Source of the DNA: Bacteroidota bacterium
Lineage (GTDB): Bacteria > Bacteroidota > Bacteroidia > Flavobacteriales > Flavobacteriaceae
Length of the DNA stretch: 11,580 nucleotides
Assembly (NCBI GenBank): GCA_018656255.1
Contig: JABHYI010000177.1
Span: forward strand, 1-11,580
Reading direction: 5' to 3'
Of the stretch, positions 2,170 through 7,829 are shown one piece after another. A model generated the notes under the pieces. It ran no database searches. It saw only the letters and a list, made by a program, of their open reading frames with translations, and was not told the origin of the DNA. The position numbers and the translations under genes were made by a program. Position 1 is the first letter of the stretch. Each line of letters starts with the position of its first letter.

Positions 2170-3213
2170 TTACTTTATTACTAATTTTTGTGTTGTTCTT
2201 ACTTTTTCTGGGCTTTCTATTGTTATGATATAGATGCCAGATCCAAGGGTAGAAATATCCATACTTTGGTTTGCTTTAATAGAAGGAACTTCTTTAATTT
2301 TCTTACCAGAGATACTATAGATAATAACAGATATGTTTGTTTGGCTATTACTAGAACTAATAGCTATAGACTCTGTTGCTGGGTTAGGATAAATAGCAAA
2401 TCCTTGCTCGTTGTTGTTTCCAATACCAAGGGTTCCCCAACGGTCCTCAGCGGGTGCTCCTCCCCAAATAATAGTCGCAAGATATGGATTATCTATAAAC
2501 GGGTTTCTATTTCCATATATCGTCTCTAGATAGTTATTTCTTTGGTCTTCAAAAATAGCATCTACGGGATCCTCTATATTCCATTGCAGGTATACTTGTA
2601 GCATATTGTTGCCACTTTGTAGAGGCCCTGATCCATTTAATGAGGGTAGGCATCTTTCTCCATAACGGGTATACATATACATCATCATTCTTGCTATATC
2701 TCCTTTCCACTCGTCACCAGGGTACCAGTTTCCACCTACATCGCCAGCGTTGCCTGTTCCTGCAGCAAATTTTTTATTTCCGCGGTTTCCATTCATTTGC
2801 ACATCACTAGATCTTAGGTTATGAGGATCTGCAACAATACCGGTATAAATATTACTAGTTCCACCCATTTCCGGGTCTGCGTTGCTACGTGCAAAAACGT
2901 GTTCTCTATTGAAATTACAGGAATTACCTCCAAATTCTTGTTTATTTCTAGTACGATCGGTCACACAACTTGAGTTGTTATATCCATACACTAATAACAC
3001 GTTTTGACTGTTATCTGGATCTTCATCTGTTTCTAACATTGTATCACGAACATCACCATATGTAAATGTTGTGTTGTCAATATCAATCTTATCTTGAAGT
3101 TCATTGTATAAAGCTTCTCCTGTAAGAGTAAGATTTACATTGTTATAGTAGGGTTGTTGTGCAAATAATATGCTTGTAATGCTTAAGCAAAAAAGTAGTT
3201 GTAATGTTCTCAT
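2170..3213 (-). CDS. Secreted endonuclease I family nuclease with T9SS sorting domain
   Basis: Probable extracellular DNase of the endonuclease I (EndA/NucM-like, beta-beta-alpha metal) family, 347 aa. Residues 1-18 form a signal peptide with probable cleavage at LFA|QQ. Family motifs appear in order: NREHVFARS (102-110), DPHNLRSS (129-136, carrying the conserved His-Asn), N141xxR144xN146, GDEWKGDIAR (166-175) followed by MYTRY, and NRNPFIDNP (235-243). Residues about 270-347 are a type A T9SS sorting domain beginning FAIYPNPA, so the enzyme should be exported through the type IX system. Its ATG directly follows the TAA of the upstream methyltransferase gene (TAAATG), with no spacer and no Shine-Dalgarno; I see no promoter of its own, so it is probably co-transcribed and perhaps translationally coupled. 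Likely roles are use of extracellular DNA as nutrient or biofilm DNA degradation (inference). Confidence 0.92.
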   Translation of the reverse strand: MRTLQLLFCLSITSILFAQQPYYNNVNLTLTGEALYNELQDKIDIDNTTFTYGDVRDTMLETDEDPDNSQNVLLVYGYNNSSCVTDRTRNKQEFGGNSCNFNREHVFARSNADPEMGGTSNIYTGIVADPHNLRSSDVQMNGNRGNKKFAAGTGNAGDVGGNWYPGDEWKGDIARMMMYMYTRYGERCLPSLNGSGPLQSGNNMLQVYLQWNIEDPVDAIFEDQRNNYLETIYGNRNPFIDNPYLATIIWGGAPAEDRWGTLGIGNNNEQGFAIYPNPATESIAISSSNSQTNISVIIYSISGKKIKEVPSIKANQSMDISTLGSGIYIITIESPEKVRTTQKLVIK

Positions 3214-4523: not shown

Positions 4524-5573
4524 ATGACGATGAAACATCTTTTAAGTATCATTATAATCCTTGTAGTATGTAGCTCTTGTTCTAGACAAAAAAAAGAGTC
4601 TTTTACACGTGTTAGTATTTCAGAAATATTTACAGATAGCTTAAGCATTCGTGCTATTGTTGCCCAAGATACTTCACGTGTATGGTTTGCAGCCAATAGA
4701 GGTGTTGTTGGGCTTGTAGATGGAAATACCCCTAAACTTGCAACGGTAACCTATGATAACAAGCTGCTCCATTTTAGAGCTATAACCAAGACACAAGATG
4801 CTGTTTTTGTTTTAAGCATTGATACCCCTGCGGTTTTATACAAAATTGACGTTAAAGATAATCAGGCTACTACTATGCAAGAAGTATACCTAGAAACTGG
4901 TGAGGGCGTCTTTTACGATGCAATTTCTTTTTGGAATGACCAAGAAGGTATTGCCATGGGAGATCCTATAGGTGGTTGTCTTTCTATTATCATAACCAGA
5001 GATGGAGGTGATTCTTGGTCTAAATTGTCTTGTGATGTCTTGCCATCTGTAGTGGTTGGTGAAGCTGCATTTGCAGCTAGTAACTCTAATATAGCAATTT
5101 ATGGAGATCATACCTGGATTGTAACAGGAGGAATGAGGGCCCGTGTGTTTCATTCTCCAGACAAAGGCATTACTTGGGCCGTGTATGATACTCCTATTTT
5201 GCAAGGAGGTGTTATGACGGGTATTTACAGCGTTGATTTTTTTGATGCCAGCACGGGTGTTATTGTTGGCGGAAACTGGGATGATAAAGATTTTAATCAG
5301 GGGAATAAAGCCATTACCAAAGATGGCGGAAAAACCTGGAGTTTACTCAGTAACGGCGCAGGCCCTGGATATAGATCTTCGGTATCTTTTGTACCTGGAA
5401 CAAAAGGGCAGGGTATTGTAGCGGTTGGGTCACCGGGTATTTCTTATAGCAGTGATCAAGGTCTCACTTGGAGTGAATTATCTAAAGAGGGCTTTTATGC
5501 CATAGAATTTGTAAATGATAGCGTAGCATTTGCCAGTGGTAGTAAGAAGATTTCAAAAATAGTGTTTAGGTAA
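4524..5573 (+). CDS. Ycf48-like Asp-box beta-propeller lipoprotein
   Basis: Predicted envelope lipoprotein of 349 aa with a seven-bladed-propeller (Ycf48/sialidase-like) fold. A hydrophobic leader (residues 6-15) ends in VVCSSC, with Cys19 the best lipidation site; -3 is an unusual Cys. No acidic residues follow the Cys directly, so a surface-export signal is not evident and a periplasm-facing location is more likely. Four Asp-box motifs (S/TxDxGxTW-type) lie at residues 158-165, 211-218, 265-272 and 309-316, spaced 53, 54 and 44 apart, which mark propeller blade turns. The sialidase catalytic Arg triad and FRIP motif are not seen, so glycosidase activity is not predicted. Relatives in non-photosynthetic Bacteroidota are often labelled oxidoreductase or photosystem-assembly-like without tested function. 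The start could equally be the in-frame ATG at 4530 (MKHLL). It stands alone on its strand. Confidence 0.85.
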   Translation: MTMKHLLSIIIILVVCSSCSRQKKESFTRVSISEIFTDSLSIRAIVAQDTSRVWFAANRGVVGLVDGNTPKLATVTYDNKLLHFRAITKTQDAVFVLSIDTPAVLYKIDVKDNQATTMQEVYLETGEGVFYDAISFWNDQEGIAMGDPIGGCLSIIITRDGGDSWSKLSCDVLPSVVVGEAAFAASNSNIAIYGDHTWIVTGGMRARVFHSPDKGITWAVYDTPILQGGVMTGIYSVDFFDASTGVIVGGNWDDKDFNQGNKAITKDGGKTWSLLSNGAGPGYRSSVSFVPGTKGQGIVAVGSPGISYSSDQGLTWSELSKEGFYAIEFVNDSVAFASGSKKISKIVFR

Positions 5574-5636
5574 GTTCTTTTAAAATCTAAATAAACCGAT
5601 TAAAAGCACACAAATAAGATAAAATGCAATTAATCC

Positions 5637-5667
5637 TTGTTTTGTAGGAAAATTCTTTCTATATTTG
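5637..5667 (+). promoter_or_regulatory. Predicted promoter of small RNA unit 1
   Basis: TTG (5637-5639), 20 nt, then TATATTTG (5660-5667) fit the Flavobacteriia sigma-A consensus TTG/TAnnTTTG. GATAAAATGC (5618-5627) sits 9 nt before the TTG and recurs, with one change, at the same distance before the second unit. A start site near 5672-5675 is expected. No open reading frame of useful size follows. Confidence 0.6.
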
Positions 5668-5672
5668 TTTCA

Positions 5673-5760
5673 GGTTAATTTTTGAAACTTTTATTATATG
5701 CCTCAAATGTAATATGAGTTCACTAATGGCGAGAATAGCGGGGGCTTTCTCGCCATTTTA
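5673..5760 (+). ncRNA. Candidate small RNA, unit 1 (about 88 nt)
   Basis: This interval runs from the expected start site of the promoter at 5637-5667 to the end of the hairpin at 5725-5757. It carries TGCCTCAAATGT (5699-5710) in a stretch with no obvious pairing, 14 nt before the hairpin. The same block, with one base changed, recurs at the same offset in unit 2. Both ends are predicted from signals only. I do not recognise a known RNA family (not 6S, tmRNA, SRP or RNase P by size or features). An untranslated leader is unlikely because the next gene downstream is on the other strand. Confidence 0.45.
5725..5757 (+). terminator. Hairpin ending small RNA unit 1
   Basis: A perfect 11-bp stem, AATGGCGAGAA (5725-5735) with TTCTCGCCATT (5747-5757), closes an 11-nt G-rich loop. 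Only four T (5756-5759), two of them in the stem, and then a mixed TATGTTTTAT tract follow, so as a terminator it is weaker than the one in unit 2. Confidence 0.55.
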
Positions 5761-5841
5761 TGTTTTATAAATTCTGTACTTAAGTAGGAATTAAAAAGTG
5801 TATCAAATCAAAAAAATACACATAAAAACGATAAAGTGTTA

Positions 5842-5861
5842 ATAAAATACGATAAAATACG
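5842..5861 (+). repeat. Perfect tandem 10-bp repeat upstream of unit 2 promoter
   Basis: ATAAAATACG occurs twice without a gap (5842-5851 and 5852-5861), preceded by a degenerate relative ATAAAAACG at 5822-5830. The second copy overlaps the GATAAAATRC block shared with unit 1. It lies 8 nt upstream of the -33 TTG of unit 2, where an AT-rich upstream element or activator site would act. Function is inferred from position only. Confidence 0.6.
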
Positions 5862-5869
5862 TTTTTTTC

Positions 5870-5899
5870 TTGTGTACTCTAAATAAAGAGTTATATTTG
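5870..5899 (+). promoter_or_regulatory. Predicted promoter of small RNA unit 2
   Basis: TTG (5870-5872), 19 nt, then TATATTTG (5892-5899) make one of the best promoter matches in the window, with the -33 and -7 parts at canonical spacing. The flanking bases TATATTTGTATCA match TATATTTGTTTCA of unit 1 at 12 of 13 positions. Start site expected near 5904-5906. Confidence 0.68.
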
Positions 5900-5904
5900 T
5901 ATCA

Positions 5905-5985
5905 TACTTATGTTAGTAATTTAGGCACGTGCCCCAAATGTGTTTAACAAAAATTCAAGAGCAGTCTCCCAACTGCTCTTTTTTT
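5905..5985 (+). ncRNA. Candidate small RNA, unit 2 (about 81 nt)
   Basis: Runs from the expected start of the promoter at 5870-5899 to the U-tract of a strong terminator. It contains the 10-bp palindrome GGCACGTGCC (5924-5933), overlapping TGCCCCAAATGT (5930-5941), which is the counterpart of the block in unit 1. An apparently unpaired A-rich linker then leads to the terminator hairpin. The only start codon near the 5' end opens a 4-codon frame. Downstream lies the 3' end of a convergent gene, so this is not a leader. Transcription is predicted, not shown; family unknown. Confidence 0.55.
5957..5985. terminator. Intrinsic terminator of small RNA unit 2, also downstream of the ABC exporter gene
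   Basis: Stem AGAGCAGT (5958-5965) with ACTGCTCT (5972-5979), extended by an A-T pair (5957/5980), 6-nt loop, followed by a seven-T run (5979-5985) on the plus strand. On the minus strand the stem is followed by TGAATTTTTG, a weaker tail, 22 bases beyond the exporter stop codon, so it may also end the minus-strand operon. Confidence 0.85.
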
Positions 5986-6002: not shown

Positions 6003-7829
6003 TTAGGCTAAGGATTGCATCTCAACAAGGCTGTAATACATTCCTTTTTTTGCTAATAAATCTGCGTGTTTCCCTTGCTCAACAATACATCCTTTGCTGA
6101 GTACCACGATAGTATCAGCATTTTGAATGGTAGAAAGCCTGTGGGCAATGACAATAGAAGTTCTATTTTTCATCATGTTCTCTAAGGCGTTTTGAACCAG
6201 GCGTTCACTTTCTGTATCTAGGGCAGAAGTGGCCTCATCTAGGATCATAATAGGAGGGTTTTTCAGTACAGCCCTTGCAATACTCAGACGCTGCTTTTGG
6301 CCACCACTTAATTTATTACCACTATCACCAATATTGGTATCAATAGTTTTAGGCAATTCTTTTACAAACTCCCAAGCATTTGCAATCTTTAATGCTGCAA
6401 TAATTTCTTGATCGCTAGCATTTTCTTTTCCAATGCGTAAATTTTCTCTAATAGTGTCATTAAACAAAATAGAATCTTGGGTCACAAGCCCAAGTAAACC
6501 TCGTAATGAGTTTTGAGTCATGTCTTTTATATCTATACCATCAATGGCTATACTCCCAGTATTTACATCATAAAATCGTGTAACTAGGTTTGCAATGGTG
6601 CTTTTACCACTACCACTTTGCCCAACCAGTGCAACGGTATGCCCTTTAGGTATTTCTAAACTAAAGTTTTGTAACACATTTTCTTGGTCATATTTAAAGC
6701 TAATGTTGTCTATACGCATGGTATTTGTGAAACGATTTTTTACAATTGCATCTGGTTTGTCAATGATGCTAGATTTGGTTTCTAGTATCTCCAACACACG
6801 TTCAGCAGCAGCATTACCTCTTTTTACACTATAACTAGCTTTACTTATAGCTTTTGCTGGTGTGAGAATATTGTAAGCAAGCCCCATATATACGATAAAT
6901 GCCTCTGCTGGTAGTGATTTATCAACCAGTACCATAGATCCTCCATACCATAAGAGTATCGATATTACTGCAATACCTAAAAATTCACTAGTAGGAGATG
7001 CCAGGTTTTGTCTATTTAATAATGTGTTCGATGATTTAAAAAAGCGCATGGTAGAATCTTCAAATCTTTTGGAGAATATTTTTTCTGCATTAAATCCTTT
7101 GATAATTTTTAAACCCCCTAATGTTTCCTCTAAGAGAGATAAAAAATACCCTTGCTCTTTTTGTACCTTATCACTATGGCTTTTTAGAGACTTTCCAATT
7201 TTTGAAATTAGAAAACCAGAAACAGGAATAAATATAAAAACAAATAAGGTGAGCTCAGGGCTTATTGCAAGCATGGCTATAATGGTAAATAAAATCATTA
7301 GCGGTTCTCTAACTATTAGCTCCAGTATAGACAAAAAAGAGTGTTGCACTTCTAGTACATCATTGGTAATTCTAGCAATGGTATCTCCTTTTCTTTTTTC
7401 AGAATAGTGAGACACAGGAAGTGCTACTGTTTTTCGGTACAATTCGTTACGTAGGTCTTTTAATACACCATTTCTTAGAAATGTAATAAAATACATCGCT
7501 AAATAGCCAAATAAATTTTTCAATAAAAAAGTAGCAATTACAAACACAATCATGATGGTAAGTGCTCCCATCTCTCCAGAGGTTTCAATGCGCTGGGTGA
7601 TGTAGAAATTAGAGAACTGCTCAAAATAATCTCCAATTTTTGTAATACCTAGGTAGGTAGGTTTTACCAACACTTTTTCTCCATTTCCGAATAATACCTT
7701 TAACATAGGCATTAGAGAAACAAAGGCCAGGGTTCCAAAAAAAGCATAGAATACATTGGCAATGATGTTTAACACCGCGTACTTTTTGTAGGGCCTTGCG
7801 TAGTCTAGTATTTTTTTGAAGTAATTCAT
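6003..7829 (-). CDS. MsbA-like ABC exporter, fused permease and ATPase
   Basis: Inner-membrane half-transporter of 608 aa, expected to work as a homodimer exporting a lipid or other hydrophobic substrate. The permease domain (about 1-335) has membrane segments near 16-45, 88-116, 165-190, 192-212 and 283-322. The ATPase domain (about 371-608) has the A-loop Tyr380, Walker A GQSGSGKST (403-411), Q-loop Gln451, signature LSGGQ (507-511), Walker B IMILDE (527-532), D-loop SALD (535-538) and switch His563, so it should be catalytically competent. Length and order fit the MsbA/LmrA type. The first extracytoplasmic loop (about 46-87) looks long for this family. Its ATG lies 4 bases after the stop of the phosphomutase gene, so the two are co-transcribed. 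A lipid-linked sugar or lipid A-like substrate is plausible from context but not shown. Confidence 0.92.
   Translation of the reverse strand: MNYFKKILDYARPYKKYAVLNIIANVFYAFFGTLAFVSLMPMLKVLFGNGEKVLVKPTYLGITKIGDYFEQFSNFYITQRIETSGEMGALTIMIVFVIATFLLKNLFGYLAMYFITFLRNGVLKDLRNELYRKTVALPVSHYSEKRKGDTIARITNDVLEVQHSFLSILELIVREPLMILFTIIAMLAISPELTLFVFIFIPVSGFLISKIGKSLKSHSDKVQKEQGYFLSLLEETLGGLKIIKGFNAEKIFSKRFEDSTMRFFKSSNTLLNRQNLASPTSEFLGIAVISILLWYGGSMVLVDKSLPAEAFIVYMGLAYNILTPAKAISKASYSVKRGNAAAERVLEILETKSSIIDKPDAIVKNRFTNTMRIDNISFKYDQENVLQNFSLEIPKGHTVALVGQSGSGKSTIANLVTRFYDVNTGSIAIDGIDIKDMTQNSLRGLLGLVTQDSILFNDTIRENLRIGKENASDQEIIAALKIANAWEFVKELPKTIDTNIGDSGNKLSGGQKQRLSIARAVLKNPPIMILDEATSALDTESERLVQNALENMMKNRTSIVIAHRLSTIQNADTIVVLSKGCIVEQGKHADLLAKKGMYYSLVEMQSLA

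Follow-up and report, generated by a model that had tools for sequence, protein, structure and literature searches.

Our analysis of an 11,580-nucleotide stretch of a Flavobacteriaceae contig (the window) identifies two predicted small-RNA genes that are paralogues of each other, each with its own promoter and terminator, and sequence comparison assigns them to a structured RNA family that belongs to an ABC transporter locus in many Flavobacteriaceae. Promoter comparisons further indicate that these two units, the gene for a CAP-domain lipoprotein and, in inverted form, about half of the genes for a separate antisense small RNA share a candidate direct-repeat operator. We consider it probable that the second RNA (unit 2) acts as a sponge for the antisense RNA by mimicking its target, and that its paralogue (unit 1), which has an additional G-rich loop, is perhaps directed against the CAP message.

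The two units lie in a gap between a YCF48/BNR-type gene (positions 4524-5573, plus strand) and an ABC transporter gene (6003-7829, minus strand), the copies being set 232 nt apart. The window's own genome is an incomplete assembly of 1.7 Mb. The closest named relatives of its ABC-transporter protein are from metagenome assemblies labelled Aequorivita (99% identity) and Ulvibacter (98%), and the top named cultures are Ulvibacter litoralis (82%) and Altibacter lentus (81%). The sequence blocks that an initial annotation of this DNA had described in both units were found at the coordinates checked, in the order and at the spacing described: TTG follows GATAAAATGC (5618-5627) by 9 nt and precedes TATATTTG by 20 nt in unit 1, and follows GATAAAATAC (5851-5860) by 9 nt and precedes TATATTTG by 19 nt in unit 2. 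According to excerpts of PMC9723704, TAnnTTTG is the sigma-A -7 box in flavobacteria. The promoter layout was incomplete in one respect, a second upstream repeat in each promoter having been overlooked (5598-5607 and 5830-5839). The features of the locus are as follows:

5598-5627, plus strand: candidate unit 1 operator, direct repeats GATTAAAAGC (5598-5607) and GATAAAATGC (5618-5627)
5637-5667, plus strand: unit 1 promoter, TTG at 5637-5639 and -7 box TATATTTG at 5660-5667
5673-5762, plus strand: predicted unit 1 small RNA, about 90 nt, with inferred ends
5688-5718, plus strand: unit 1 hairpin, from predicted fold and alignment, with loop segment TGCCTCAAAT at 5699-5708
5725-5757, plus strand: unit 1 terminator hairpin, in which AGCGGGGGCT (5737-5746) forms a small stem with a GGGG tetraloop
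5830-5860, plus strand: candidate unit 2 operator, direct repeats GATAAAGTGT (5830-5839) and GATAAAATAC (5851-5860)
5870-5899, plus strand: unit 2 promoter, TTG at 5870-5872 and -7 box TATATTTG at 5892-5899
5905-5985, plus strand: predicted unit 2 small RNA, about 80 nt, with inferred ends; putative target-mimic RNA
5906-5912, plus strand: unit 2 5' segment ACTTATG, a putative remnant of motif M1
5920-5947, plus strand: unit 2 hairpin 1, with loop GTGCCCCAAAT (5929-5939), motif M2
5957-5985, plus strand: unit 2 terminator hairpin (5957-5980) and T run, with a second C-rich loop CTCCCAA at 5966-5972
6003-7829, minus strand: ABC transporter neighbour with membrane and ATPase domains; synteny anchor, outside the RNA system

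At the sequence level, the units have what is looked for in an intergenic small-RNA gene, a promoter-like sequence and an intrinsic terminator with no conserved open reading frame. A short peptide was considered as an alternative product and rejected because its frame is not conserved: by eye, the unit-1 frame from ATGAGTTCA lacks an ATG in genome G001, and the frame from ATGGCG is interrupted by a stop in G002. An origin by chance or as a repeat artefact is ruled out by synteny and covariation. Elsewhere in the window, positions 1-2070 and 2170-3213 encode, by eye, subtilase-like and endonuclease-like proteins, both with an apparent type 9 secretion sorting tail, as is usual in the group.

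A structural alignment of 27 unit-2 RNAs gave a two-helix structure. GCCCCAA (GCCCUAA in three RNAs) forms the loop of a hairpin of 8-10 bp, hairpin 1, which is followed by the terminator hairpin, mostly with a second C-rich loop. Alignment cells assigned to helices were paired in 97.0% of cases, versus 75.5% in shuffled alignments and 33.1-66.1% when the structure was slid, and changes on both sides were seen at 14 of the 16 pairs, including all eight pairs of hairpin 1. This combination of compensatory stem changes and a conserved loop is that of a structured RNA family. Outside the helices, the 5' segment ACUUAUG is predicted to be unpaired with a probability of 0.61, the core being held in the hairpin loop. 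Unit 1 is built differently: across 27 sequences its C-loop hairpin is less regular, and its terminator hairpin shows changes on both sides in 8 of 12 predicted pairs.

These alignments alter how the 12-mer TGCCYCAAATGT shared by the two units is to be read. The proposal that it is a functional core accompanied by diverging stems holds up against the synteny, the covariation and the detection of unit 1 with the unit-2 covariance model described below. It is not a linker: the 12-mer consists mainly of the loop GCCCCAA, together with the first stem bases of a hairpin that had been overlooked.

To follow the family beyond the window, we used a covariance model, R1, trained on unit-2 sequences only. 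The search, of a kind the initial annotation had suggested, gave matches with an E-value of 0.01 or lower in 58 of the 199 genomes of the family. Among 30 loci fetched from it, 29 carry the ABC gene; the match at the remaining locus (L162) was judged false, as was a match in L364. In four relatives (L077, L096, L098 and L069) the R1 matches include unit 1 (31.5-32.0 bits, E 3.5e-5 to 4.7e-5). As the model was trained on unit 2, this establishes the paralogy as real; the window's copy of unit 1 has a score of just 14.8 bits (E 0.57). The idea of two small RNAs derived by duplication thereby gains support from synteny, covariation and cross-detection alike. At the DNA level, unit 1 matched nine genomes, two of them (G045 and G230) with short matches taken as chance, and the small RNA is conserved in G001, G002, G003, G006, G007, G010 and G185.

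Both units occupy the equivalent position in close relatives and are also conserved in other genera, so that a lack of conservation in related species, named in advance as grounds for dropping the idea, was not what we found. Behind the ABC gene, two units are present in Ulvibacter, Altibacter, Marixanthomonas, Thermobacterium, Patiriisocius and others (the records of Altibacter lentus and Ulvibacter litoralis carry both), one unit in, for example, Flavivirga and Hyunsoonleella, and up to three near-identical tandem units in Aquimarina. The Aquimarina units (L083, L085, L093, L094, L108, L121, L129) have two C-rich loops each and are about 130 nt long. No unit was seen in the ABC loci read from Lutibacter (two loci) or from Maribacter, Zobellia, Cellulophaga, Pricia and Winogradskyella (one each), genera whose other loci were scanned with a motif pattern only. 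At gathering score, Rfam had no match to the window, to 15 ABC loci or to six antisense and CAP loci, and sub-threshold matches were judged to be chance. The units add a small-RNA family that is absent from the Rfam copy used.

Upstream of both units lie two direct copies, 20-21 nt apart, of a repeat with the approximate consensus GATwAArnrY. The repeats are spaced by 20 nt in unit 1 and 21 nt in unit 2, and end 32 and 31 nt before the -7 box, respectively. Across relatives, 27 of 29 unit-1 promoters and 60 of 76 unit-2-type promoters have them ending 31-32 nt ahead of the -7 box, and an operator score of 17 or 18 of 18 is reached by 27/29 and 54/76 of these promoters versus 4/2100 shuffles, the 76 rows including a few mis-detected places. 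A genome search with a strict form of the operator returned 18 matches, spread over 12 of the 16 genomes; the reversed control returned no match. Nine matches are at unit loci, and among the nine others two precede the CAP gene, in the window's own genome (L213) and in G022 (L200). Unit-1 promoters of the clade also share a TTGTAGGAAAATnnTTnCTA-like imperfect palindrome between the -33 and -7 elements (5642-5661 in the window, and at the same place in L061-L079), at which a second regulator may act.

The CAP gene encodes a lipoprotein-like product with a CAP domain (Pfam PF00188), a relative of which was found in 26 of 59 genomes. Its mRNA leader contains a hairpin, CATCA-TGCCCCAAATT-TGATG, whose loop is identical to the unit loop. 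We assembled 16 CAP leaders, ten of the 30 in one set and six from another, that were chosen for their C-loop leader and all come from the window's genus or an Ulvibacter-like group; they have in common the operator, a TA[G/T]ATTTG promoter and the C-loop hairpin. The operator score is at least 16 in all 16 of these promoters versus 5/320 shuffles, with the repeats spaced by 21 nt and located 20-21 nt before the -7 box. The C-loop leader is absent from three other CAP paralogues of the genus (L223, L224 and L241). In other genera, the CAP leader ends in forms of CCAAATCTA...TTAACCTACTTATG, and the small RNA begins at its 5' end with AACCTACTTATG or a near form, which we call motif M1; the small RNA and the mRNA leader therefore have both M1 and M2 in common. 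In one genome (G002, L060:4354-4557), unit 1 lacks the GGGG loop, the CAP leader lacks CCCC runs and the unit-2 promoter has, by eye, no clear -7 box, changes that are possibly a joint decay.

A search of 11 genomes with the M1 string ACCTACTTATG gave 51 matches versus 41 in the reversed control, and only paired matches stand out: in 10 of the 11 genomes there are pairs about 210-250 nt apart. All eight pairs that we read resemble reverse-strand small-RNA genes with promoter-like boxes and terminators, the better copies having TATATTTG as promoter box, and all eight carry an exact complement of M2 in their flank, though this had not been searched for. The core of this antisense RNA reads ACCAUA(A/G)CAUAAGUAGGUUAAGUUCAUGGUAGAUUUGGGGCA. 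The M1 complement lies in a hairpin, and the M2 complement is predicted to be single-stranded, with an unpaired probability of 0.95 in the G006 copy. Altogether we collected 41 copies in 25 loci, with two copies in 16 loci; their near-invariance is partly by construction, since the pattern used to find them was derived from their own core. Among 39 antisense-RNA promoters, an operator score of at least 16 is found for the inverted operator in 20 and for the direct orientation in none, versus 2/390 shuffles.

Translation of three loci places the antisense RNA between a superoxide dismutase gene and purF, neighbours that we take from their sequence to be sod and purF. We examined this synteny in 28 genomes, 27 of which have sod. 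The antisense RNA is within 1.5 kb of sod in 16 of the 27 and was not found within that distance in 11, including all six window-lineage genomes tested; in two of the 11 (G001 and G022) a contig end is near. A search of the window's own genome for sod found none. In G010, a near relative of the window, one copy of the antisense RNA is located beside purF, as synteny predicted, so that units 1 and 2, the CAP mRNA and the antisense RNA are all present in this genome. At four loci (L303, L314, L315 and L326) sod is followed by arrays of broken repeats, in which pieces resembling the antisense 3' part (ATTTGGGGCA or near) alternate with a CTCGCCACCCC element; this looks like repeated insertion or decay at that locus.

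We next compared these RNAs for complementarity, with shuffle controls that ignore the relatedness of the genomes. The antisense RNA is perfectly complementary to the CAP 5' region over 9 nt or more in 11 of 15 genomes versus 239/4500 shuffles; in the other four the match is only 7-8 nt long. The duplex energy has a mean z of -2.48 over 13 genomes. In seven of eight genomes of the Ulvibacter-like group the energy is good, with 0-4 of 200 shuffles doing as well; it is not good in G008 (41/200) or in five genomes of other genera (15-114/200). The CAP mRNA of the window's own genome is predicted to pair with the G006 antisense RNA at -49.1 kcal/mol (z -6.5) and with that of G010 at a net -27.7 kcal/mol, in a duplex that spans CCCCAAAUU just before the AUG and the codons for KLSLLAM.

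Of the unit-2-type RNAs, 29 of 40 contain a perfect complement of 9 nt or longer to the antisense RNA, versus 124/4000 shuffles; the 40 were picked at loci with a visible C motif, loci without a visible unit being left out, so the motif frequency among them is not independent. By energy this pairing is weak, with a mean z of -1.21 over 21 genomes and several values near 0. In the window, TGCCCCAAAT (from 5930) is a 10-nt perfect complement to the antisense RNA, and the predicted duplex with the G010 copy places the 10-mer UGCCCCAAAU in the loop at a net -8.1 kcal/mol. Unit 1 of the window reaches a net -4.3 kcal/mol with the same partner, with one G-U pair in the equivalent loop, and has no strict complement above chance (6 nt); across all unit-1 RNAs a 9-nt complement to the antisense RNA occurs in 6 of 29 versus 73/2900 shuffles. 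The complementarity to a regulatory small RNA that a sponge should have is thus found in unit 2 only, by sequence, with a weak energy and with a partner taken from the near relative G010. The order of the two motifs in the decoy is opposite to that in the mRNA, so one continuous duplex is impossible. Kissing between units 1 and 2 of the window was tried as another possibility and is not above shuffles (z 0.5).

On the basis of these comparisons, we propose a mechanism in which the hairpin loop of unit 2, GCCCCAAAU, would copy the leader loop of the CAP lipoprotein mRNA, and its 5' segment would copy the start-codon region of the CAP mRNA of other genera. A separate antisense small RNA bears the complements of both motifs. 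In its free state this RNA would block translation of the CAP mRNA by pairing at the start region and first codons; when occupied by decoys, transcribed under the CAP gene's own operator, it would leave the CAP protein to be made. Since unit 2 copies the target of the antisense RNA, it should relieve CAP repression. The common operator would tie the CAP mRNA, the decoys and, in inverted form, the antisense RNA to one transcription factor. An earlier guess that the conserved segment is a target-pairing seed fits best in outline; as the partner found is itself a small RNA, and as it is an mRNA leader that the segment copies, we prefer the term target mimic.

Complementarity alone is silent on which partner regulates the other, and the roles could be reversed, with the C-loop RNAs regulating other mRNAs and the antisense RNA acting as their sponge. 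The rise in unit copy number to three in Aquimarina would suit such an arrangement. We regard it as improbable, given that the C-loop RNA resembles the CAP mRNA and that the antisense RNA pairs at the start region of that mRNA. Quite improbable, in our estimate, is that the GCCCCAA hairpins and the CAP leader are both bound by one RNA-binding protein, and that the RNAs titrate this protein as CsrB does CsrA. In favour of this are the conserved loop on a covarying stem, its frequent repetition within one RNA and its presence in an mRNA leader; against it, an RNA complementary to both the loop and the start region occurs in the same genomes.

Under that target-mimic reading, unit 1 would be a duplicate with a weaker decoy loop and a gained G-rich loop. 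The terminator hairpin described for unit 1 is present; the conserved G-rich loop at its apex had been overlooked. Its top reads AGC-GGGG-GCU in most sequences, with GGGG conserved in 26 of 27 (the exception is G002/L060), and in G010 the AGCGGGGGCT motif occurs, within the 1.2 Mb read, only in unit 1. Among 13 genomes with unit 1, there are eight in which the unit-1 loop AGCGGGGGCU can form at least six Watson-Crick pairs with the bases immediately preceding the CAP start codon, versus at most three in 11 genomes without a G-loop unit, an association that counts for few events because the genomes are related. In G002, which has lost both the G loop and the C-run, there are three such pairs. 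The consensus loop AGCGGGGGCT was applied to every genome in this count; with its actual loop, CGCGGGGGCG, G022 would have seven pairs instead of eight (hand count). As the G-rich loop of relatives can pair with the C-run just before the CAP start, unit 1 may act on the CAP mRNA directly, which is the least certain step of the proposal. In the window lineage no more than 3-4 Watson-Crick pairs link the loop to the CAP start region, so the loop is there unexplained or relaxed, and the predicted pairing of the window's unit 1 with CAP does not exceed that of shuffles (z 0.7).

A simpler account of unit 1, somewhat unlikely in our view, gives the G-rich loop no trans role: it would be a strong terminator loop, or would pair with unit 1's own C loop. 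The location of the loop in the terminator stem, the occurrence of both CCYC and GGGG in most unit-1 RNAs and the few pairs available in the window lineage all fit this account. It sits less well with unit 1 of L061, L070 and L072, in which the C loop is gone and the G loop kept, or with the difference in pairing before the CAP start between genomes with and without a G-loop unit, a comparison confounded by common descent. Taking the target-mimic reading to its full extent, a single transcription factor would govern a closed RNA circuit of mRNA, antisense RNA and tandem decoys, in which one clade duplicated a decoy and exchanged its C-rich loop for a G-rich one, making a second antagonist of the message out of its former protector; we offer this tentatively and think it rather unlikely to hold in full.

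Small-RNA sponges are already known. To our knowledge, none has been described in Bacteroidota that copies the leader of its target and shares its operator. QrrX of Vibrio cholerae is reportedly an RNA sponge of quorum-sensing small RNAs, and like it the putative decoy would be a dedicated small-RNA gene whose product base-pairs with and neutralises regulatory small RNAs; the present family differs in phylum and sequence, in a decoy that resembles the target mRNA leader and stands under the target's operator, and in a decoy paralogue with an opposite-sense loop. In Campylobacter, CJnc190 is said to be a trans-acting small RNA with a cis-encoded antagonist, CJnc180. The likeness is a small RNA neutralised by an antagonist RNA, here putatively, whereas the decoy and the antisense RNA are at separate loci.

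Within the Bacteroidota, excerpts of PMC7366714 and PMC11697453 describe GibS and FopS of Bacteroides as pairing near target start codons, and FopS as a multicopy paralogous family. The phylum, the pairing near a start codon (here predicted) and, for FopS, the multicopy paralogy are shared with our units; the same excerpts describe a single-stranded 5' seed, no C-loop hairpins, and do not mention an antisense partner (PMC7366714, PMC11697453). At unit 2 the Rfam GibS model reaches 22 bits, below its gathering score of 115. Rfp18 of Flavobacterium psychrophilum is likewise a structured flavobacterial small RNA conserved beyond its species, and in excerpts of PMC9723704 it targets metalloproteases and an adhesin via its third stem-loop. 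These reported targets set it apart from our family in a comparison by description only (PMC9723704), and an overlap of our family with one of the F. psychrophilum small RNAs in that paper is possible. Searches of the literature on small-RNA sponges in Bacteroidetes returned B. thetaiotaomicron work with nothing on this RNA family in the excerpts available; none was found on C-rich-loop small RNAs in Flavobacteri- or joining CAP domain, Flavobacteri- and sRNA, and a general small-RNA search had nothing on this family among the matches listed. Post-transcriptional control in flavobacteria is little mapped, and the present system is conserved and compact, with exact candidate pairing sites and named culturable hosts. 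Its putative sponge function, the effect of dosage (copy number ranges from one to three) and the possible descent of an antagonist from a decoy are therefore directly testable.

The circuit may extend to further genes. A search for UUGGGGC followed by ATGA gave more matches than the reversed control in seven of seven genomes; the matches are not separable from coding sequence, and other targets are therefore possible. Operator-like repeats occur near genes for secreted-looking proteins beginning ..AQVGIGTT/V.. (L208, L209, L212 and L260), and CCCCAAAT is found also in the L260 leader, which makes a second regulated mRNA possible. In three genomes (L199, L210 and L211) the operator also precedes a gene for a small zinc-ribbon-like protein (..FGHD/H..).
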